Assembly: GCF_037975245.1 (NCBI RefSeq)
Contig: NC_092577.1
Coordinates: 10,539,513 to 10,603,512, forward strand
Reading direction: 5' to 3'
Length of the DNA: 64,000 nt
From: Apostichopus japonicus
Lineage: Eukaryota > Echinodermata > Holothuroidea > Aspidochirotida > Stichopodidae
Shown: one piece after another, positions 10,416 to 60,830 of the stretch
Layout of the letters: every line of letters begins with the position of its first letter
Numbering within the stretch: position 1 is the first letter of the stretch
The notes under the pieces: model-generated
What the model was told of the DNA's origin: nothing
The model's input: only the letters and a program-made list of their open reading frames with translations
The model's database searches: none
Translations under genes and position numbers: made by a program

Positions 10416-11038
10416 TCATCTTATTATCGCTCTTGCTTTACCTCCTTTCATCTGCAGGCATGGAATTACACTTGTTTGATACATACCGTAAGTGTACAGC
10501 TTTATAGACTCATTTGTTGCTATTAAGAGTTTATCAGTACCATCAACTTCTAATATGGTTATACAACGAGCATCACCGTCTACTTCTCTTTTTGTTAGTA
10601 ACTTTCTTCCATTCTGACTATACTGTAGCAGGATACTTCTCTGTTTACCTGAGAAGTATGTCGACCATAACATGTAGATGAATTGATTCTTGTCTGTGCA
10701 AACACTGAAAGGTCTCCAGTCACCTCTACCAAGAAATGCTCTCATAAATTCATATATCAGATTACCCATCATGGTGACTGCATAAACTTTTTTAGCAATG
10801 CTATCGCATACCAGGAGACTACCTCTATGTACAGCGATATCGTCCGAGTATTTGATTACATCTGGTAATGTGATGGTGTGACTATACCTTAACTGATCAT
10901 CAAATACATACATATATCTGCTGCCAGTACCAACAATGATGTGATTGTTGAGGGGATCGAAAGCAACACAGCTCACAAATCGATCGTGGGGCCAGTCATT
11001 AATGACGTCACTGATGTTTCTCTTGCTAAGTACACCAC
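10416..11038 (-). pseudogene. TRIM locus 1, C-terminal beta-propeller part (downstream of the TIR element)
   Basis: This is the 3' portion of a TRIM-type gene whose 5' portion lies at 16126-17758. The reading frame continues the order seen in intact locus 2: GVLSKRNISDVINDWPHDRF, then about 186 residues to the stop at 10416. Repeated blade-like motifs are visible (HIIVGTGSRYMYVFDDQLRY; GSLLVCDS; YAVTMMGNLIYEF; FIYMLW; LLIATNESIKLY). They resemble the NHL/WD-like propeller of the TRIM2/3/56-type group. The fold is inferred and not computed. A 5.1 kb insertion separates it from its RING and coiled coil, so it has no start codon or promoter of its own. It is about 90% identical to locus 2 by eye. 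Confidence 0.9.
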
Positions 11039-11040
11039 CA

Positions 11041-11480
11041 CTCTCTTAATTCGCAAGATTGACTTTTCACTCTTAAAGATTGAATTTTAAATCTTTGGCA
11101 GATTGATATTAGGGACCAATCGGCTTAGATTGACTTTCAATCTGTCTTAAGATTGAAAAAAAAATAGTCTTAAAAGATTGAAAGTCAGTGTTTTTTAAGA
11201 TTAATATATCAATCTAATGGATTGGTTTTCTTAATCTAAATTCGATTGACTTTGAAATTTCAATCTAAAACGATTGTAACTATCAGTGAATTAGATTGAT
11301 AAAAGTCATTCCATACGATTGACTCTTCGATCATAAAAACTGACTTTCAATCTGTTATAGATTGAAAAGGTAGAAATCTAATAGATTGACTTTAGAATCT
11401 AATTTAGAATGACTATTAGTCTAAAAATGTTTTTTATTTATATGATTGGGACTGTCAATCAATATGATCATGATTGTCAC
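11041..11480. repeat. Left TIR and subterminal AGATTGA repeat array
   Basis: The TIR is followed by more than ten copies of AGATTGA or its complement TCAATCT in both orientations, often as the palindrome-like AGATTGACTTTCAATCT. A shorter matching array lies inside the right end (15905-16110). Such arrays usually bind the transposase. Confidence 0.8.
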
Positions 11481-12132
11481 TCGTTTTGCAGTTTGTCTAT
11501 GTTTAAGCTTTCAACGTTAATTTTGTAAACATATATTGAAACAATTGGTTTTGTCACCCAATTAAATTATTCTCAAACAGAAGCTATTAACATAAGAGTA
11601 TATGTCCACTTAGTTTCGCTTGAGGAAAACACCAGAAACAGAAAAGACAGAATGTACTTTGTAGACGAATTATATTCATTTACTGATGCAGTGAAGAAAA
11701 CAAAACATGCAGAACATGGGAAATACTGGAGTTCCATAATTTTAAACATTTTCAGGTGCTAAAGATGAAGGCTAAAATAAAACATAATTAAAACACTGGC
11801 ATGCATTTACTGATGCAGTGATAAACAAAACATGGGAAATACTAGAGTTCCATAAGTTTAATCATTTTTATGTGCTAAAGATGAAGGCTTAATACTGGTG
11901 TTCCATAATTCTAAAGTTAAAGAATGAAGTTTGCAATAACATACTGAAGATTTTATCAGGTGTAAAAGGAAAATTTGAATAATTAGCCTTTCCTATAGAT
12001 ACAATAGGCAAATAAGAACCTGAACTGGATTAAAAAAACTGAGGCTATGTCCCTTTTGGTTAAAACAAAACAACCTGGTAAGAATACCGAGCTGAACTAA
12101 AATTATGCATGCTTGTTTTAAATGCTAAATCT

Positions 12133-12138
12133 TTTATT
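12133..12138 (-). terminator. Polyadenylation signal AATAAA of the element-borne gene
   Basis: On the minus strand AATAAA lies about 40 bases after the stop codon at 12177. This is the expected distance for the poly(A) signal of the gene ending there. Confidence 0.6.
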
Positions 12139-12176
12139 TATATTTCATCAGTAAACACCATTTTAAGTCAATATCA

Positions 12177-12497
12177 TTACTTGGGTGGTGCTCTTATTGC
12201 TGCACCAAGAGCTCGGACCTGTGGTTTTGCTGTTGCTGGAGGTAGTACTTCATAGTTCATTGCAGCAATAAATTCCCAAAATTGTTGCAAACTTGGAGAG
12301 TACTCCACATTAAAAACATAATGACACTCAAACAGTCTGTCTAAAGCATCCACCACATGAAGCCCTCCTGAAATTGCAATGCGGTCCAATATTACAAAGA
12401 ACTGTTTCGGATCTTTTTCTGCACCAAGGGATAGCAACAATGGCTGCTTGAAACGATCTTCTTTCAACTTTGTTGCTTCTTCAACATCTGTTCCTTC
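12177..12497 (-). CDS. Terminal exon of an element-borne gene; C-terminal conserved domain of unknown function
   Basis: The exon encodes 106 residues to a stop. It is preceded by a strong acceptor: the pyrimidine-rich tract CTCTTTTCTGCTTGTTATCC followed by CAG at 12500-12498. The frame is also open upstream to about 12582, so the true exon could be longer. Visible features are an Asp/Glu/Lys-rich start (EGTDVEEATKLKEDRF), then PLLLSLG, FFVILDRIAI, VDALDRLFECHYVFNVEY and LQQFWEFI. The pattern 'LFxxHxVFNxxY...FxxFI' resembles the C-terminus of uncharacterised multi-copy proteins of fish and marine invertebrates, some of them SAM-domain-like. That resemblance is from memory and the function is unknown. 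The matching first exon is at 15574-15643. I could not identify middle exons, and a nested element occupies part of the gap. The gene may be fragmentary. Confidence 0.6.
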   Translation of the reverse strand, partial: EGTDVEEATKLKEDRFKQPLLLSLGAEKDPKQFFVILDRIAISGGLHVVDALDRLFECHYVFNVEYSPSLQQFWEFIAAMNYEVLPPATAKPQVRALGAAIRAPPK

Positions 12498-13617
12498 CTG
12501 TGGATAACAAGCAGAAAAGAGTAATAACTGTAACACATGGTAATGCTCTCCTTTTATCCATTTTCTGAAATGAGGATGATTTCTGCAGTTGAGCTAACTC
12601 TTTAACGCTTAAGCTTGAAAAATATGTTCAACTGCTTTTAAAGTAGCATTTTGCGTTTGGTCGCCGTATTATACTTTTTTGACATGTCCATCAAGTTTTT
12701 TACATATATCAATCACAAAAGAGCCAACTAAGATATTTATAAGATATTTGCAGATAATGAGAAAAGTGTCCACGACAAACTCGATATTTAAAATTAATCG
12801 CATACAGTTCCCCCAAACCTACTAGTCTGAATTCAACCAATCAGAGATATGCAGGTTTAGTGATGAGCCGTTGCTAAAAATAGATTCAAGACTTTGCGTT
12901 GGTACAACCAAAGAGTTGTAATGGAACTCCCTGGTACAACTGCCATATAGACTGTACACAAATCAAGCATGGTGTTGTATTATGGATTGGTCAATGACGT
13001 TCGTAGTGTATATTCATATTATCGGTGAGGTTTATTGAGATTCCAACGGATAATATCTTGGAGAAAAACACAGTTGAAAGTTGCAAAATGTTCAACTTTT
13101 ATGCCACCATTTGAAGTAAGATTTAAATAGATGGGCTAGTTATGTATGTCGTTATGGCATAGTGGAGTCAGTGAGGTTGAGAAAAATCATAGAAAAGCAC
13201 GCAAATTGTTTTATTGCACATGTAATTATGTATGCACAGTAACCGTAGAAGGTGTACCGTAACAGTGCAATAAATGTACTAGATAGTCTATACTATCCAC
13301 ACTTTTGCCATCTGTGGGCACTGTGCTTGATATTATGATATTATGCCGATATGGATTATAATATTGAACTGACAAGAGAAGTCACAAGCCTTTACCAATT
13401 TTAATGAGCAGTAAACTTCTTGCATATAAGTACAACATGATATGTACAAGCATTAAGCATCACTACACACTTAACCCTACTGTCCAGAGAATACACACTT
13501 TTTACATATATACTGCACATATATACAGTTTCAGTATGACCAACCCACAGCTGCTGACCTTGTTCTGTGAACTGCTTGTAGTTCAAGGGTCCCATTAACC
13601 ATTGGGCAATAAGGTGT

Positions 13618-14594
13618 ATACTATGGCGCGAGAAAGCGGAATATATTACGTACAAATATATATCTCTAAAAAAAATATACAATTGAGTGAAATGCGCCCT
13701 GCACCACTGACGTAACAGTTTACCTGCCTTACAGATTTCAATAGGCACTTGCGGTAGATCGCAGGAAATTTGAGCTGTGCAAATGACTTTCACACGTTCG
13801 TTTCCTTTGCAAGGTTTGGCAAACTGCTTACGTAACACACCGGATAACGTTCCAAACTAATAACCTTGAAATGTGAAGAAGTGAGCAGTTACTGTTAAGC
13901 CGGCTGGTTACGTACGGTACAGAAGGCTTCGCTGTCGAACGTACCGTAGTACAATCAGGGAGTTGTTATGGAATAATCCCTGGTACTATCATGTGCAATG
14001 TGATATCGCAAACCCACTAACAATGAACTGCATTAAGATTCTGAGCAAACATGTGCGTTTTATGAATGGCCAGTGTAAAGAACAGGCTGGTCACTGCTGA
14101 AGTTACGGAACATCTCAGTCAGCACTTACAGAGCTCCGTACTTTGTACAGCATATATATTTTTCGCACAGAATATATTTTTCGTACAGAATATATTTTTC
14201 GCACAGAATAGGTCTTGAATATTAGAGAATATATATATTTTCTTTACACACAATAAAAATATATTTTTGCACAGAATATAATTTCTCCTGTAGAATATAT
14301 ATTTTTTCTGTCTCAGAATTTATATATTTTGCTAGAGAAAAATATTTTTCTGTCAGAGAATATATGTTTTGGTACTTTGTACAGCATATATATATTTTTC
14401 GACCAGAATATATTTTTTCGCACAGAATAGAATTTTGTTGTTAGAGAATATATATTTTCCGTACACACAATAAAAATATATTTTTGCACAGAATATAATT
14501 TTTCCTGTAAAATATTTTTTTTTCTGTCTCAGAATTTATATATTTTGTTAGAGAAAAATATTTTTCTGCCAGAGAATATATATGTTTCTTAACA

Positions 14595-14649
<55 letters not shown>

Positions 14650-14844
14650 GAAAATATATATTTTTCTCTTAGAGAATATATATTTATATTATAAATGTTT
14701 TTGTGTCAGAGAATATATTTTTTTTTTCAGAATATATATAAATATGTCTAAAATGTATTTTTGAAGTAAACCATGTATATATTTTGCAAGTAAAGCATAT
14801 ATATTGTTGTACACAATATATTCCGCTTTCTCGCGCCATAGTAT
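13618..14844. mobile_element. Nested AT-rich element with ~37-bp TIRs
   Basis: The left end ATACTATGGCGCGAGAAAGC (13618 on) is repeated in inverse at the right end, 14844 back to about 14808. The match continues through GGAATATATT and GTACA with two mismatches. The interior is AT-rich and contains a duplicated ~230-bp unit: the words CTTTGTACAGCATATATAT begin near 14142 and again near 14373. A TA microsatellite also lies inside. No protein is evident. It is nested inside the 5.1 kb element, so it is younger. Confidence 0.8.
14598..14643. repeat. (TA)n microsatellite
   Basis: A run of about 23 TA dinucleotides inside the nested AT-rich element. Confidence 0.95.
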
Positions 14845-15573
14845 CCTCATGAGGGTTTCTCCTAGCTAGTAGTAACTGGAATGTGATTAATGATTTATCA
14901 TTTGATGACTTTTTCTCCTATACAATTCTAGCGTGATATTATACTATTCTAGACTGTCACTGTGTGAAGAATTTTGTACACTCTGCACAAGGGATGTGGT
15001 GGGAAGGTATGAAGGAAACACAGCACTGTAGTGTTTAACAGTTGATTTTAGCACTAGCAAGGGCCAAGGCTAGGTCTAACGTTAGGCCTTGCCTGCCATA
15101 GGCCTAACAAGTTTCAATGTGAATATGGCGATGGTCTTTATCTATCATGCTGCTAGACTACACAACCGAAGTTGAATGAATGTTTCAAATGTATCACGAT
15201 AAAGCCTAGGCCTACTGTAATTGAATTAATCCGCATGCACATACGCATGTGATTTTCTCTGCAGTGCGTTAAACCTCATTTCGCCAAAAGTCACAATAGA
15301 CACTTGCCTAACTTTAAGTCTAATATAATTAAAGTAGGAAATGCAACAATAAAAGAAAAGGAAAATTGAAGATGGGCAGATACACAAATTAAAGGAGTAA
15401 ATGAAAGCGTATAAAACGAGCATTTTGAAGTACAGACAATAAGAAAAGCGTAACGTTAAGCCTAACGTTATCATAGGCTTAGTAGATCAGCAACTAAGCA
15501 GACTGAACAGCGAAATGCTAGGCTACATGATCGACAACTAGCTGAAAGGTGTTAAAAAGTCAAAAATACGAAC

Positions 15574-15643
15574 CTTCTAGAATAGTGATTATCTCCTCCG
15601 TGAACTCTTTCTTCGCCAGAAAATTTCTTACGGTTCCTGCCAT
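15574..15643 (-). CDS. First coding exon of the element-borne gene, SAM-like N-terminus
   Basis: ATG at 15643 opens 23 codons, MAGTVRNFLAKKEFTEEII onward ending TILE, and stops at a canonical donor, AAG|GTTCGT, at 15574/15573. The split codon leaves phase 1. The peptide resembles the start of SAM-like domains ('xVxxFLxxxxFxEExIxxLEExxID') in proteins that also carry the C-terminal block encoded at 12177-12497. The exon is short, so the evidence is the combination of Met, amphipathic helix pattern and donor. Three CCAAT boxes lie 215-330 bp upstream on the same strand. Exon 2 was not found. Confidence 0.5.
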
Positions 15644-15857
15644 CTTTCTTTAAATGAGAAGGCTTCTTCGAAAGGTTTTAAGAAACTGAACTAAAATACA
15701 CCGCTGTTTTGGCACAATCAGTCAATCAGTACTGTGTACTATCATATACGTTTCATGCAGTGCGTTGTGCAGAGCAGTATACAGAAGACCGGTATAATGT
15801 ATTACGCTGTGTGTACGTACGCGGTGCAGCAGTGGGTATTTGGTTTTGCGAAATCTG

Positions 15858-15974
15858 ATTGGACAATAGGCAGCGTTGGTATTTGTTTTGGCGTAATCTG
15901 ATTGGATAAAAGTCAATCTTTACAAGACTGACTTTTATTTGCACCACGTGACTTGATTCTAGCGTTTTCATTGG
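15858..15974 (-). promoter_or_regulatory. Three CCAAT boxes upstream of the element-borne gene
   Basis: CCAAT on the minus strand occurs at 15858-15862, 15901-15905 and 15970-15974. The first two share the wider context TCCAATCAGATT, the classic NF-Y type. They sit between the right TIR and exon 1, so the promoter would travel with the element. Confidence 0.5.
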
Positions 15975-16125
15975 ATATATCTGTAAATCTAAAAAACGAT
16001 TAAGTCAAGGATAAGACGTATTCAATCTATTAGCTTAGATTTCAGTTCATTTTCAATCAAATAGATTGAAAACTACTGTCAATCTTAGCTACCACTGACT
16101 TTGTCAATCTTACGAGTTAAGAGAG

Positions 16126-17758
16126 CATGCACATCATAAATACTGACTTCATCACGCAAGCAAGCTGTTACAACTTTGAAGTTTGATAAAGAACAACAGT
16201 AACGTAATGCGAAGGACCTGGACCTCTGATTCTGGATCTGATCTTTTCGTACAACTTTACCTTCCTTGTTGATCACAGTGATATGTGTGTAACCTTCTGA
16301 TTCATCACCAGTGATGACAATGTGGCCTTTCCCGCTGCTTGCAATACCATTGATTCCCCTACGTTTACCTTTGATTCCCAAAACGTCAATAACGGACTCT
16401 TCATGTTCAGTTTCCGTGACGTCATCAAAAGTTACTTTAGTTATGTCGCTAATTGGAAAAACATATGAAGATGTAAAGTCTGGAAATTCTTTTTTCATTT
16501 CTTCTATCAGAGGTTCACATGCTGCTCTAATATCTGGAATACACTGAACGTATGTCCAATCGTTATTAGAAGCAAGAACAGACGAACTCGTTATTGTTAA
16601 GTTCTCATATCGATTAATAATCTGGTCAAAACTTTCCGAGATATCTTTAAGTTCATCTTCATTTCGTTTTGCAAGTAGTTCTTTCGTTGTTGTCAAGTTC
16701 TTTAAATTAAGATCAAGTCTTTCAACTTTTCTTGACAGTTGTTCCTCAATTATATTGCAATTTTTTTTAAACTCTTTACATTTATCATCATATTTTCTTT
16801 TAGTTGTTTTCCTGATGTTGTCATATTTCTCTCTTAGTTGGTTCAATTCTTTTTCATAATCAGAACTCGTTTGATTGTCTTCTTCTTTTCTTAGGTTTTC
16901 TATGTCCAATATCCCTCGTTCTCTCACATTAATACGTTCAGCAAATTTATCTCTAATTTTGTGTGCCTGCTCTTTGTGCTGTTTTATGAAACTTTCTGTC
17001 ACATTGACAACAATTTCCTTTAATTTTATAGTTGTGTCTTTAACTTTCTTTGGTAAGTCGTATAGTTTAACTTTGTGTATATTAAGTTCCGCTAGTTTCG
17101 GTTCGAGCAATTCTCTTTCACTCGTTGCTAGTTCTGTTACGTCGTGTAGGTCATGATCTTTGTGTTTACTGTATGTACAGATCACACAAACCGGTAGATT
17201 TCCGCAAGTACTGCAACATAATTTGGCATTCTCGTTCACATGTACATCGCACATAGGATCTTCCGTGAGTGCTGCTAACTTATCCAATGTTAGTTTCTTT
17301 GTTTCAATATCGTCCAATTTCAGAGAGTGTGGTTGATGATCTGTAAGCATTTTACTTTTGACGTGGACCTCGTAACATTCATCACATAGAAACTCCCTGC
17401 ACTTAAAGCAGTATGCTGAAACTACAGTATGCTTTGAACAGCTGATGCATTTCTTTAAATCTTTATTTCCAAAACATTTTTGCAATATTATGAATTCAAG
17501 CATACTCTTCATATGAAAATCAGTCTTGAAATCGTCTACCCCATTTTCCGGTACGACGTTATCCTGTTTACACATTGGACATTTAACTGACCCGTCTTGG
17601 CTGGCTCCAATGACTGCTTTCAAGCAATCTTTACAGTATCGATGAAGACATGGTAACTGTTTCGGCTCTTTAAGTTGATCCAAGCAAACAGGACACAGGA
17701 AGAAATCGTCTGGCAAGTCTTTTAGAGATGTAAGCGAAGCCATCGTTGTGGTAGACAT
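16126..17758 (-). pseudogene. TRIM locus 1, RING / B-box / coiled-coil part
   Basis: A TRIM-type E3 ligase gene disrupted by the 5.1 kb element. Reading from ATG at 17758 (MSTTTMASLTSLKDLPDDF) the frame gives a C3HC4 RING (CPVCLDQ...LPCLHRYCKDC...CPMC), two B-boxes (CISC...CFKC...CDEC; CDVH...CCSTC...CVIC...HKDH), a long coiled coil and the first propeller strands (SSGKGHIVITGDE). It ends RDEVSIYDVH, then runs into the element's inverted repeat and stops at 16085. The real C-terminus is at 10416-11038. A truncated RING/B-box/coiled-coil protein of about 557 residues could still be made, so calling it dead is an inference. Just upstream is a splice acceptor (TTGCAG, AG at 17764-17765), implying an intron in the 5' UTR. 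Confidence 0.9.
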
Positions 17759-17999
17759 GATTTCTGCAATATACAAGGATATAACGGATCAAACTAACCG
17801 TTATGCCATAAACTTCTTTAGTCAATCCTCAAACGTGTTTAACAAAATAAAGAGAGTTAGCAAGTTCTAAACTTGTATGATATTTGATCACGCTGGCGCG
17901 CGCACTACCTTGCATCGTCAGTCGCGGGAAATACTTCAGTCATATATTTTTATGTTTTTTTATGCATTCACACGTGAACGAACATGAAAAATCCTCAGA

Positions 18000-26754: not shown

Positions 26755-27690
26755 ATGTAATCTTGTATTATTCCGGTACCAAAACAATCAGGCATAACTA
26801 GCATGAACGATCTTCGTCCAGCTGCTTTCGCTTCCGTCGTACTGAATCATGCGAACGATTTATTTTACACTACTTTAAGAAGCTAACTGCTAATGTTATG
26901 GATGATCTCCACTTTGCCTATAGAAAAGATCGTAATACTGAAGATGATATCCTGTTCACACTGGACTAATTGTATTCTCATCTTGAAGACTCCAGATCTG
27001 GTTCTGTGTCAGCCAGCATTATGTACTTTTTGTATGTCTGATTTGCATGCAATGCTATACAACCTTATATTTACTCCCTGCCCTGTTCCTTTAATCCTCT
27101 CTTTCCCCCTCCACTGTTTATCTCCTACGTCTCCTCTTCCCCGGTTGCTTTCTTCTCTCCATCCCTTGTCTACTCATAATCCCCTTTCATCTATCTCATT
27201 GTGTTCACCGTGCTCATCAACCTGTCTGTATTGTGTGCGTGTTTTTGTCTCTTCTGTTACTGTTACTTGTCATTTAGCCTCTGAAGAAGATCCTGCTAGG
27301 ATCTAAACGTCAGGCAATCTTACTTTTACACAACCGTATATTTTAGTAGATCTGCTACTGGTTCTTATAACGCTGGCCCGTTGGGTCTTAGATTATAATA
27401 CCAACCATTCACAAGGTGTCCGTATTGGTATTCTGTTAAAACTGATGTTATTAATTGTGGTACTGGAGCATCCCAGGGTACTTTGCTTGAACCTTGCCTC
27501 TGCTCTAACTGGTTTGATTAATAGGGATAAGGTGTCTGAACCAGTTGTTTTTAAAGGATAAGGTAGAGGATAGAGTTAGTGAGTACAAATGCCTGGGACT
27601 ATGTTTGAAGACCATCTCAAGGGGGATGTACCCTTCGAGTATATAGCTAAACGTCTGAAACCCCGCATGTATTGTTTTAACAAAAATCAC
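26755..27690 (+). pseudogene. CR1-like LINE reverse transcriptase relic, copy B (interrupted)
   Basis: Paralogue of 9115-9955. It keeps the NDLRPAA block near 26808 and the CLGL and RLKPRMYCFNKNH thumb region near 27590-27690. It has lost the segment with the catalytic GDD-like motif and is interrupted at 27073-27329 by a retro-insertion. Several frame breaks make it non-functional. Confidence 0.85.
27073..27329 (+). mobile_element. 257-bp retro-insertion with 14-bp target duplication
   Basis: It is bounded by ACAACCTTATATTT (27059-27072) and ACAACCGTATATTT (27330-27343). Unit A has a single copy at this site (near 9410). The 3' part reads CCTCTGAAGAAGATCCTGC then GATCTAAACGTCAGGC, which resembles the conserved 3' tail of CR1-like LINEs and the SINEs they mobilise. 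It is a 5'-truncated LINE tail or a SINE inserted after the A/B duplication. Confidence 0.8.
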
Positions 27691-28162
27691 GACTTACTGT
27701 ATAACAACATGGGACATCGCGGCAATGCAAATAAGACATCTAAGAGAGACCTTATATTATTTTTGATTGTGTTATATTATCAAGCGGGCCGGACGGGAAA
27801 TGTTCGCCTAAGGTGGACCAAGTTTTTGAAAGTCGGGTTCGTGGGCAAACTTAGTTATGTGTAAAAGGATGTTAGCAACCCCCAAATATTAAGAAATGAG
27901 TAATTCTATCATTCCACTCGGTGGTACAATGCGACCACTGAGCGCAAACATCATTCGTCGGCTACCCTTCTTCCTTTCTGAAGCAAGCCGCTAGTATAAC
28001 TTTTAGCTTGTTTTTTTAATCATTAATCATTCTTCTTGTCATTTTCATTGCCTTGTTTGGGTTTTTGCAACTTGACAATGTCTGGTCAGTACTGTGTTAC
28101 CTATGTACATGCATTTCGTTGGTTAGATCGTCTTTTAAAGTGTTAGTGTTTTTATGTCTTGT

Positions 28163-30418
28163 TCATCTTAATATCGCTCTTGTTCTACTTTGTTTTATCT
28201 TCAGGCATGGAATTACACTTGTTGGATATATACCGCAAGTGTACAGCTTTATAGACTCATTTGTTGCTATTAAGAGTTTATCAGTACCATCAACTTCTAA
28301 TATGGTTATACAACTAGCTTCACCGTCTACCTCTCTTTTTGTTAGTAACCTTCTGTCATTCTGACTATACTGTACCAGGATACATCTCTGCTTACCTGAG
28401 AAGTATGTCGACCATAACATGTAGATCAAATCGTTCTTATCTGTGCACACACTAGTAGGTATCCAGTCACCTACATCAAGAAATGCTTTCATTAATTCAT
28501 ATATCAGATTACCCTTCATGGTGACTGCATAAACTCTTTTACCAATGCTATCACAAACCAGGAGACTACCTCTATGTACAGTGATATCGTACGAGTATTT
28601 GATTACATCTGGTAAAGTGATGGTGTGACTATACCTTAACTGATCATCAAATACATACATATATCTGCTGCCAGTACCAACAATGATGTGACTGTTAAGG
28701 GGATCGAAAGCAACACAGCTCACAAATCGATCGTGGGGCCAGTCACTAATGACGTCACTGATGTTTCTCTTGCTAAGTACACCACTATGCACATCATAAA
28801 TACTGACTTCATCACGCAAGCAAGCTGTTGCAACTGTGCGGTTTGATAAAGAACAACAGTAACGTAATGCGAAGGACCTGGACCTCTGATTCTGGATCTG
28901 ATCTTTTCGTACAACTTCACCTTTCTTGTTGATCACAGTTATATGTGTGTACCCTTCTGATTCAATACCAGTGATGACAAAGTGGCCTTCCCCGCTGCTT
29001 GCAATACCATTGATCCACCTACGTTTACCTTTGATTCCCAAAGCATCAATAACAGGCTCTTCATGTTTAGTTTCCGTGACGTCATCAAAAGTAACTTTGG
29101 TTATGTCGCTAATTGGAAAAACATATAAAGATGTAAAGTCTGGAAATTCTTTTTTCATTTCTTCTATTAGAGGTTCACATGCTGCTCTTATATCAGGAAT
29201 ACACTGAACGTCTGTCCAATCGTCATTAGAAGAAAGAACAGACGAACTCGTTATTGTGAAGTTCTCATATCGATTAATAATCTGTTCACAACTTTCCGAG
29301 ATTTCTTTAAGTTCATCTTCATTTCGTTTTGCAAGTAGTTCTTTCTTTGTTGTCAAGTTCTTTAAATTAAGATCTAGGCTTTCAACTTTTCTTGAGAGTT
29401 GTTCCTCAATTCTATTGCAATATTCTTTAAACCCTTTACATTTATCATCATATTTCCATTTAGTTGTTTTCCTGATGTTGTCATATTTCTCTCTTAGTTG
29501 GTTCAATTCTTTTTCAAAATTAGAACTCGTTTGATTGTCTTCAACTTTTCTTAGGTTCTCTATGCTCAATATCCCTCGTTCTCTCACATTAGTAACTTCG
29601 GCAAGTTTATCTTTAATCTTGTGTGCCTGCTCTTTGTGCTGTTTTTTGACACTTTCTGTCACATTGACAACACTTTCCTTTAATTTTATAGTTGTGTCTT
29701 TAACTTTCTTTGGTAAGTCGTATAGTTTAACTTTGTGTTTATTAAGTTCCGCTAGTTTCGGTTCGAGCAATTTTCTTTCATTCTTTGCTAGTTCTGTTAC
29801 GTCGTGTAGGTCATGGCCTTTGTGTTTACTGTATGTACAGATCACACAAACCGGTAGATTTCCGCAAGTACTGCAACATAATTTGGCATTCTCGTTCACA
29901 TGTACATCGCACATGGGATCTTCGGTAAGTGCTGCTAACTTATCCAATGTTAGTTTCTTTGTTTCAATATCGTCCAATTTCAGAGTGTGTGGTTGATGAT
30001 CTGTAAGCATTTTACTTTTGACGTGGACCTCGTAACATTCATCACATAGAAACTCTCTGCACTTAAAACAGTATGCTGAAACTACCGTATTTTGTGAACA
30101 GCTGATGCATTTCTTTAAATCTTTATTTCCAAAACATGTTTGCAATATTATGAATTCAAGCATACTCTTCATATGAAAATCAGTCTTGAAACCGTCTACC
30201 CCATTTTCCGGTACGACGTTATCCTGTTTACACATTGGACATTTAACTGATCCATCTTGGCTGGCTCCAATGATTGCTTTCAAGCAATCTTTACAGTATC
30301 GATGAAGACATGGTAACTGTTTCGGTTCTTTAAGTTGATCCAAGCAAACAGGACACAGGAAGAAATCGTCTGGCAAGAATTTTAGTGATGTTAGCGAAGC
30401 CATCGTTGTGGTAGACAT
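28163..30418 (-). CDS. TRIM-type RING E3 ubiquitin ligase with C-terminal propeller (locus 2, intact)
   Basis: Single-exon CDS of 751 residues and the only complete TRIM gene here. The RING is C3HC4 with C22, C25, C37, H39, C42, C45, C60 and C63. B-box 1 spans about 104-144 and B-box 2 about 170-205 (CDVH, CCSTC, CVIC, HKGH). A Lys/Glu-rich coiled coil spans about 215-410, and a propeller-like region with repeated strand motifs about 465-735 (GEGHFVITG, HIIVGTGSRYMYVF, GSLLVCDS, LIYMLW, LLIATNE). The order matches TRIM proteins with NHL-type C-termini; the propeller is an inference. I chose the start MSTTTMASLT because an acceptor (TATATTGCAG, AG at 30424-30425) lies 5 bases upstream, so the frame further upstream is intron. 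The expected role is ubiquitin transfer in the cytoplasm, with the propeller binding protein or RNA. Confidence 0.9.
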   Translation of the reverse strand: MSTTTMASLTSLKFLPDDFFLCPVCLDQLKEPKQLPCLHRYCKDCLKAIIGASQDGSVKCPMCKQDNVVPENGVDGFKTDFHMKSMLEFIILQTCFGNKDLKKCISCSQNTVVSAYCFKCREFLCDECYEVHVKSKMLTDHQPHTLKLDDIETKKLTLDKLAALTEDPMCDVHVNENAKLCCSTCGNLPVCVICTYSKHKGHDLHDVTELAKNERKLLEPKLAELNKHKVKLYDLPKKVKDTTIKLKESVVNVTESVKKQHKEQAHKIKDKLAEVTNVRERGILSIENLRKVEDNQTSSNFEKELNQLREKYDNIRKTTKWKYDDKCKGFKEYCNRIEEQLSRKVESLDLNLKNLTTKKELLAKRNEDELKEISESCEQIINRYENFTITSSSVLSSNDDWTDVQCIPDIRAACEPLIEEMKKEFPDFTSLYVFPISDITKVTFDDVTETKHEEPVIDALGIKGKRRWINGIASSGEGHFVITGIESEGYTHITVINKKGEVVRKDQIQNQRSRSFALRYCCSLSNRTVATACLRDEVSIYDVHSGVLSKRNISDVISDWPHDRFVSCVAFDPLNSHIIVGTGSRYMYVFDDQLRYSHTITLPDVIKYSYDITVHRGSLLVCDSIGKRVYAVTMKGNLIYELMKAFLDVGDWIPTSVCTDKNDLIYMLWSTYFSGKQRCILVQYSQNDRRLLTKREVDGEASCITILEVDGTDKLLIATNESIKLYTCGIYPTSVIPCLKIKQSRTRAILR

Positions 30419-30422
30419 GATT

Positions 30423-30430
30423 TCTGCAAT
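30423..30430 (-). promoter_or_regulatory. 5' UTR splice acceptor shared by TRIM loci
   Basis: On the minus strand, TTGCAG precedes AAATC and the start codon. The same arrangement is found at loci 1 (AG 17764-17765), 3 (TTTCAG, AG 39512-39513) and 4 (TTGCAG, AG 54180-54181). Conservation across diverged copies argues that a 5' UTR intron precedes a single coding exon. The upstream exon was not located. Confidence 0.65.
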
Positions 30431-30640
30431 ATACAATATATAACGGATCAAACTAACCGTTTTGCCATAAACTTCCTCAGTAATACTCAAATGTGTTTAA
30501 CAAAATAAAAAAGTTAGCAAGTTCTAAACTTTTCTGATATTTGATCACACTGGAGCGCACACTACCTTGCATCGTATATTTTTATGTTTTTTATGCATTC
30601 ACACGTGAAAGAACATGGCAAATCCTCAAACTGAACACAC

Positions 30641-48331: not shown

Positions 48332-48870
48332 TACGTCATTCTACAAACCTGCCGCCCTATATAACGGTCCATATGTCTCTATTGGTCACTTTAGTCTTTC
48401 TCTCACCCTTACTACTGTCTTGTTACTTGTTCCTTTGACTTACATGATATATATTTTATTTCACGCTACCCACATCAGTGTTTGATATACTCCCATACGT
48501 ACACTATGAGGTATGTCAGTCCACAGACCTGTCGCCCGATACTCTTTAAGAAGAGTCACCCAGGAAAGAACCTGGGCACGAAAACCAAACTACCAAAAGA
48601 CTGATTCGCTCTCAACCCCAGTCCCATTGCATCGAGACTGTGACTGTGTGATCATCGTCGGTTGTGGATCACCATTCCCATCGAAAGGGAACAGATACTA
48701 CACATGATCTTAGCCAAAAGGCCGAGAAGCGACCTGCCGCCCTATATATCGGCCCATCTGTCTCTATTGGCCACACTAATCTTTCTCTCACTCTTACTCC
48801 TGTCTAGATACGTGTATATTTGACTTAACATGTTATATATTTTCTTTCACGCTTTGTCCGTTCTTCTAAA
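48332..48870. repeat. ~175-bp tandem repeat array, copy 3, holding the U2-headed insert
   Basis: Units homologous to 35306-35862. One is interrupted by the retrosequence at 48542-48730. Confidence 0.8.
48542..48730 (-). mobile_element. U2 snRNA-headed retrosequence (SINE-like), copy 1
   Basis: A 189-bp insert between GACCTGTCGCCCGATA (48526-48541) and GACCTGCCGCCCTATA (48731-48746), a 16-bp target duplication. On the minus strand its first ~44 bases match the 5' end of U2 snRNA: GCTTCTCGGCCTTTTGGCTA, then AGATCA and GTAGTATCTGTTC (stem I, branch-point-pairing region). After TCTGTTC it departs completely from U2 and runs into a body with hairpins: GTGATC/GATCAC, CCCAGG/CCTGGG and a terminal ACTCTT/AAGAGT. 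It is not a functional U2: stem II, the Sm site and the 3' stems of U2 are absent. A second copy is at 60505-60693. Confidence 0.85.
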
Positions 48871-60296: not shown

Positions 60297-60830
60297 ACGC
60301 CATTCTACAGACCTGCCGCCCTATATATCAGCCCATCTGTCTCTATTGGTCACTTTAGTCTTTCTCTCCCTTACTACTGTCTTGTTACTTGTTCATATGA
60401 CTTACATGTTATATCATTTTATTTCACGCTACCCACATCAGTGTTTGATATACTCCTATACGTACACTATGAGGTATTTCATTCTACAGACCTGCCGCCC
60501 GATACTCTTTAAGAAGAGTCACCCAGGAAAGAACCACGGCATGAAAACCAAACTACCGAACGACTGATCCGCTCTCAACCCCAGTCCCCTTGCATCGAGA
60601 CTGTGACTGTGTGATCATCGTCGGGTGTGGATCACCGTTCCAATTGAAAGGGAACAGATACTACACATGATCTTAGCCAAAAGGCCGAGAAGCGACCTGC
60701 CGCCCTATATATCGGCCCATCTGTCTCTATTGGCCACACTAATCTTTCTCTCACCCTTACTCCTGTCTAGTTACGTGTTCATTTGACTTAACATGTTATA
60801 TATTTGCTTTCACGCTTTGTCCGTTCTTCT
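60297..60830. repeat. ~175-bp tandem repeat array, copy 4
   Basis: Continues the array after the hAT-like element and contains the second U2-headed insert. Confidence 0.8.
60505..60693 (-). mobile_element. U2 snRNA-headed retrosequence, copy 2
   Basis: 189 bp, flanked by GACCTGCCGCCCGATA (60489-60504) and GACCTGCCGCCCTATA (60694-60709). Same site and length as 48542-48730, so both descend from one insertion through segmental duplication. Substitutions have broken one hairpin here: the left arm CCAGG now faces CCACGG. Confidence 0.85.

Follow-up and report, generated by a model that had tools for sequence, protein, structure and literature searches.

Plants are the best-known hosts of CACTA elements, and movement of the plant element Spm requires two proteins. 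In maize Spm, according to the account in PMC2613891, intron 1 of tnpA contains the tnpD frame, TNPA attaches to the subterminal repeats, neither protein is dispensable, and derivatives with deletions can be mobilized by proteins acting in trans. The transposases of the CMCT group, as characterized in PMC12730594, bear a C(2)C pair and an H(3-4)H pair, both placed between the second D and the E. Most lineages of the group have 5'-CA..TG-3' termini. Here we analysed a stretch of 64,000 nucleotides from the holothurian Apostichopus japonicus (assembly GCF_037975245.1, contig NC_092577.1, positions 10,539,513 to 10,603,512; hereafter the window). The feature at 11041–16125 of the window is very probably a copy, non-autonomous through an internal deletion, of an animal cut-and-paste DNA transposon of CACTA/EnSpm type (CMCT clade), the family of which encodes two genes, one for a transposase and one for a protein with a SAM domain. 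This degree of confidence covers the element and its two genes, and not the role of the SAM protein. An animal CACTA-type lineage would then have retained a SAM-domain second protein in families that differ greatly from one another, with an arrangement that mirrors that of plants.

The window element is 5,085 bp long, with its gene on the minus strand, and is delimited by whole-length comparison and by 12 short copies, the ends of which match at 98–100% in end searches of the genome. It is bounded by a left terminal inverted repeat at 11041–11063 on the plus strand (CTCTCTTAATTCGCAAGATTGAC) and a right one at 16103–16125 on the minus strand, both found by inverted-repeat detection, with arms of 23 nt each that are 91% complementary. 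The target-site duplication CA flanks it on the left (11039–11040) and on the right (16126–16127). A left subterminal array (11056–11389) holds 13 AGATTGA motifs in both orientations, and a right one (15913–16110) holds five. The inverted ends, the CA duplication and the arrays are all present, as the original prediction had claimed. AGATTGA occurs 30 times in the window against 14.9 expected, with 18 of the 30 inside the two subterminal stretches; as one of 100 shuffles of the window also reached 30, the clustering, and not the total, is the telling point.

The genome (671.6 Mb in 35 contigs) was searched with window sequences, the left end, the right end and the terminal exon of the gene serving as DNA queries, and the copy counts given here are lower bounds. 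Both ends were found together at 14 places, comprising 12 short copies, of which the 11 with both tips read span 5,009 to 5,505 bp, and two long copies, C10:10814621-10830640 (16 kb) and C17:20282802-20302018 (19 kb), both ends of which are 88–95% alike to those of the window element. Single-end matches occur at two more places, C9:758066 and C3:9179742. The main blocks of the window copy are 97.8 to 99.2% identical to those of the 11 other short copies, with the exception of one 468-base block at 94%. A perfect 2-bp target-site duplication, within the CMCT range of 2–5 bp, flanks 13 of the 14 copies (TA in nine, CA in two and TG in two), the fourteenth copy (L011) being without its left tip. 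The terminal exon was matched in 12 of 12 short and two of two long copies, which bears out the expected co-occurrence of the inverted repeats and the exons.

Comparison of the short form with the long copies reveals that its left part can be aligned into the last intron of the SAM-protein gene, and that the alignment resumes far off in intron 1. Lost from the short form are a transposase frame of 868 codons and the seven middle exons of the SAM-protein gene, which has nine exons in all. On this alignment, the short form is an internal deletion derivative of the long form. The junction lies at 12634–12639, where GCTTTT is common to both sides, as interrupted gap repair would be expected to leave. 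The transposase frame is open over its 868 codons in the C10 long copy and broken over two frames in the C17 long copy, in which the match to SAM exon 2 covers the first 25 of 152 bases only. Since the middle exons and the transposase have been lost from the window copy and are present in the two long copies, the earlier description of a complete gene architecture was wrong. The accompanying statement that no transposase is recognizable holds for the window copy but not for its family, as the long copies carry a CACTA/EnSpm-type transposase.

The signals around the two retained exons are as originally described. Exon 1 (15643–15574, minus strand; 70 nt counted from the ATG) encodes the first half of the SAM domain and ends in phase 1 at the donor GTTCGT. 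The terminal exon (12177–12497, minus strand; 106 codons plus stop) starts in phase 0 behind the acceptor CCACAG, and AATAAA follows 38 nt beyond its stop (12133–12138, minus strand). Three CCAAT boxes (15858–15974, minus strand; at 15862, 15905 and 15974) lie 5' of exon 1. Between the end and exon 1, three CCAAT boxes are found in the C10 long copy and two in family A, one of the related families discussed below, with TCCAATCAGA present in each. Splicing of exon 1 directly to the terminal exon is out of frame and gives MAGTVRNFLAKKEFTEEIITILEGRNRC followed by a stop, so that the window copy would be unable to make the SAM protein by that splice.

Two further insertions were observed within copies of the family. 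The short element contains a nested inverted-repeat insertion (13618–14844), the 46-nt arms of which, beginning ATACTATGGCGCGAGAAAGCGG.., are 91% complementary and enclose an A+T-rich, repetitive core. All 12 short copies have it and the long ones lack it: the other 11 short copies each match 836 to 1,227 of the 1,227 bases, the long copies no more than 71. The C17 long copy contains a non-LTR (long terminal repeat) retrotransposon (L015 3361-7070) with a zinc-knuckle frame and an endonuclease-reverse transcriptase frame.

Nine exons of the SAM-protein gene are indicated by open-frame comparison between the C10 long copy and family A (C14:22541816), with splice sites and phases concordant between the two; the exon 5 donor of the family A gene was chosen among in-frame GT sites. 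The predicted proteins of the C10 copy and family A have 476 and 459 residues, respectively, and share 52% amino-acid identity. In the full-length C10 copy, the transposase and the SAM gene lie on one strand, with the transposase frame within intron 1 of the SAM gene, and the same nesting on the same strand is found in family A. The SAM-like N-terminus noted earlier proves to be half of a SAM domain: window exon 1 joined to exon 2 of the long copy scores 30.6 bits against the SAM_1 cut-off of 23 (with E as the residue at the join; a later model has D), and the C10 copy's own predicted protein scores 25.3 bits. Pfam searches of the predicted SAM protein gave SAM_1 and SAM_2 above cut-off and nothing else above one, and the terminal domain gave one match among solved structures, at chance level (E 0.89).

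Between the C10 copy and family A, the SAM genes differ most at third codon positions (0.63, compared with 0.38 and 0.25 at the others). Nonsynonymous divergence (dN) amounts to 0.40 for the SAM gene and 0.29 for the transposase; synonymous divergence (dS) is saturated, so that dN/dS is not obtainable. At the DNA level, the alignable parts of the two are the transposase, three of the SAM exons and a stretch of 106 bases at one end, and no others. The excess at third positions and this restricted alignment form a pattern as for genes under selection to be kept.

A protein search for relatives of the transposase gave 59 scored matches among 402 candidates (identity 100% to 31%, many with an open frame). 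Families A to F were picked from these 59, and their surroundings were then scanned for SAM-gene exons. Among these six other families, five clearly have SAM-gene exons beside the transposase and one has them weakly. Family A, with a transposase 59–60% identical to that of the window family, carries the whole SAM gene. Near the family B transposase, SAM middle exons are matched at E 2.4e-10 and 7.3e-7, and in family C, with a transposase 33% identical, the terminal exon is matched at E 6.4e-21; the SAM exons of both were found by profile search. Families D and E have terminal-exon matches at E 3.5e-18 and 4e-18, respectively. The SAM matches in families A to F lie on the transposase strand, and the few on the opposite strand are at chance level (E 0.1 to 2). 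Pairing was also examined with a single-sequence search for the terminal exon (149 of 150 matches used, some contig sizes assumed): for 16 of the 59 transposase matches there is a same-strand match to the terminal exon no more than 15 kb away, and for none of the 59 is there one on the opposite strand. Random placement gave a mean of 0.27 same-strand pairs and a maximum of 3 in 2,000 trials.

Terminal-exon matches were also found without a nearby transposase. Two such groups were sampled at two copies each, and both pairs prove to be bounded elements, about 5.3 and 5.6 kb in length. The copies L038 and L039 start with CACTCTAAAAAC and L041 starts with CTCTCTTAAATTTG, each with TA flanking both sides; L040 is without one tip. 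The left end of family A (L017 6623-7098) has at least 38 short derivatives of 96–99% identity, which by this likeness are a recent burst of non-autonomous copies, and a terminal-exon remnant is present in 19 of 38. Inverted-repeat pairs elsewhere in the genome thus carry exon matches too, in the bounded L038/L039 and L041 elements and in the family A derivatives. The ends of family C were missed by inverted-word matching and recovered from copy boundaries, and inverted-word matching with a 2-bp duplication did not find those of families B, D, E and F. The same protein family stands between related ends in family A, family C and the two short-element groups. Because SAM-gene exons lie beside the transposase across families, the SAM-domain protein is, on this arrangement, transposon-encoded, and the suggestion to that effect in the original prediction stands.

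As a separate observation, one family C copy is nested in another repeat (L023 190-867, L036 3992-4674), with 32 matches to one side at about 97% and 18 to the other at 98–99%.

The transposase was aligned over 16 relatives chosen from the 59 matches. D310, D405, C424, C427, D491, H494, E498, G499, H638, H642, E662 and H665 are identical in 16 of 16, with the spacings C424-x2-C427 and H638-x3-H642, and all 16 bear the D, D and E of the CMCT signature together with its C(2)C and its H(3-4)H. D310, D405 and E662 are the putative catalytic residues. Pfam Transposase_21 (tnp2) was matched in six of the 16 relatives (best E 1.8e-5) and DUF4218 in three, for which the one score considered is below the curated cut-off. 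The transposase also has C2H2-like fingers; in the window family, the N-terminal finger reaches 19.0 bits against zf-C2H2, below the cut-off of 25.2. In several families a Met stands just ahead of the fingers, suggesting that the transposase frame probably has its own start. Among solved structures, C2H2 zinc fingers make up most of the matches to the transposase profile (best E 1.2e-4), the rest being weak matches to FokI and others (E at least 0.066), and the single transposase sequence matched none. The 2-bp duplication had suggested ISL2EU or Tc1/mariner as well, but both were rejected on account of the CMCT signature in the transposase. A scan of viral contigs with the transposase alignment gave 105 pattern matches, none of which was confirmed.

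The ends of these elements are related as well. Those of the window family, family A and L041 begin with CTCTCTTAA, and those of family C and L038/L039 with CACTCT; in the four groups besides the window family (A, C, L038/L039 and L041), the ends start with CTCTCTTAAA or CACTCT and have TA duplications. The subterminal repeats are AGATTGA in the window; family A has AGACTGA, and family C has TGACCCA at its left end, a motif that is rare in its right end.

Several observations weigh against the assignment of the window feature to a two-gene CACTA/EnSpm-type family. The ends of the window family start with CT, not CA, its transposase has no match among Pfam, NCBIfam and PDB sequences, and the scores considered for Transposase_21, those of five of the six matching relatives, all lie below the curated cut-off of 28.6 bits, at 14.0 to 24.5. 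Family F gives no more than a weak SAM-gene match (E 0.0018). Family E has its SAM gene upstream of the transposase and not around it (L020 1597-6850), indicating that nesting is not universal and that gene order has changed within the lineage. In the pairing test, 43 of the 59 transposase matches are without a terminal-exon match, partly because a single-sequence search misses distant families such as B and C. The identities of the two proteins are not significantly correlated over five families (10 pairs; rho 0.45, p 0.19), and both gene models are predicted from sequence alone.

Our comparison with described systems reveals that the family resembles maize En/Spm, as presented in PMC2613891, in its two element proteins, in the transposase frame within intron 1 of the second gene, in its subterminal repeats and in its deletion derivatives. 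It differs in having 2-bp duplications, as compared with the 3 bp given for EnSpm in PMC12730594. The ends, CTCTCTTAA here and CACTCT in relatives, are likewise not the CACTA of maize En/Spm, and the second protein here has a SAM domain and showed no relation to TNPA in Pfam. SmTRC1, an animal TRC element of the CACTA superfamily described in PMC1636069, is alike in its 2-bp duplications (7 of 14 copies there) and its CXXC, and has several spliced transcripts. Its D-x-[LM]-H motif has an inexact counterpart in the D-x-M-H stretch of the present transposase, with E here where SmTRC1 has L, and often P before the D; at 4.5 kb and with CCC ends, SmTRC1 is unlike the window family, and the description consulted names no SAM protein in it (PMC1636069). 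The EnSpm-like ESTA elements, which PMC12730594 describes from fungi and some of which carry TET/JBP, share the CMCT signature and TA duplications with the present elements, a likeness drawn from the description only. We found no report in the literature of a SAM-domain protein in CACTA/EnSpm or any other DNA transposon, Repbase entries lying outside this search. The CTCTCTTAA ends, the duplications at pyrimidine-purine (Y-R) steps and, above all, the SAM-domain second protein set the family apart as a variant within the CACTA superfamily, which itself is known.

In the mechanism that we propose, a transposase supplied in trans would cut at the CTCTCTTAA ends, and insertion would occur at Y-R steps, above all TA, with two bases duplicated. 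As the least certain step, the SAM protein may act like TNPA of maize Spm and bind or pair the AGATTGA arrays next to the ends. By this analogy, we lean towards the SAM protein being the element's second transposition protein with a TNPA-like role. SAM domains commonly drive protein-protein assembly, and Pfam gives no DNA-binding domain in this protein besides SAM, both of which would also suit an element-encoded protein that is not itself a DNA-binding partner and counters host silencing, or polymerizes and aids chromatin state or nuclear import. Other DNA transposons carry putative anti-silencing genes, such as TET/JBP in fungi as described in PMC12730594. We nevertheless consider such a function rather unlikely, since the analogy with Spm, in the subterminal repeat arrays and in the nesting of the genes, points to a TNPA-like role.

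It is quite improbable that the SAM gene is captured host cargo, riding along without helping transposition. Its exons lie on the same strand beside transposases 32 to 59% identical to that of the window family (families A to E), against the absence of opposite-strand pairs, and its coding exons have been kept between families whose introns no longer align. Both points argue against cargo, for which one may adduce the non-significant correlation of divergence between the two proteins and the similar multi-copy proteins of animal genomes. That the window feature is an ordinary host gene between chance inverted repeats is scarcely credible: the canonical splice signals, CCAAT and AATAAA are such as a gene would have, but the same ends recur at unlinked places with perfect 2-bp duplications in 13 of 14 copies, a 93% paralogue has the empty site, and the two remaining exons join out of frame.

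The preferred reading of the SAM protein as a second transposition protein may extend further. It is possible, if doubtful, that a widespread animal CACTA-type lineage has a SAM-domain second transposition protein and Spm-like nesting, and that the multi-copy SAMD3-like proteins of animals are transposon proteins or their domesticated descendants. SAMD3-like animal proteins presumably resemble the element's SAM protein in having a SAM domain at the N-terminus and a comparable region at the C-terminus; in this wider reading, both the link to SAMD3 and the occurrence in other animals are suppositions. If true in other animals, multi-copy 'uncharacterized SAM' genes would be transposon genes, which would give annotators a reason to mask them, and the lineage would offer an animal system for asking what the second protein does.

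The window element lies within a host TRIM-like gene. Once the element and one CA are removed, a RING/B-box TRIM-like frame of 761 codons is stop-free; its 5' part, with the RING and B-box, occupies 16128–17788 and its 3' part 10416–11040, both on the minus strand. In the 93%-identical neighbouring paralogue at 27527–30640 (minus strand), the empty site is uninterrupted, which indicates that the insertion is probably younger than the duplication of the TRIM-like gene. By this insertion, the window family alters an expanding host gene array. The TRIM-like genes stand in tandem (10416–17788 and 27527–30640, minus strand), and a search with one protein stretch gave 150 scored matches among 254 candidates, many of the 150 on C17 close to the window. 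Elsewhere in the window, two short matches to U2 small nuclear RNA at 48663–48733 and 60598–60696 (minus strand), of 71 and 99 bases, score 50.1 and 52.1 against a gathering score of 46 and are perhaps U2-derived fragments.

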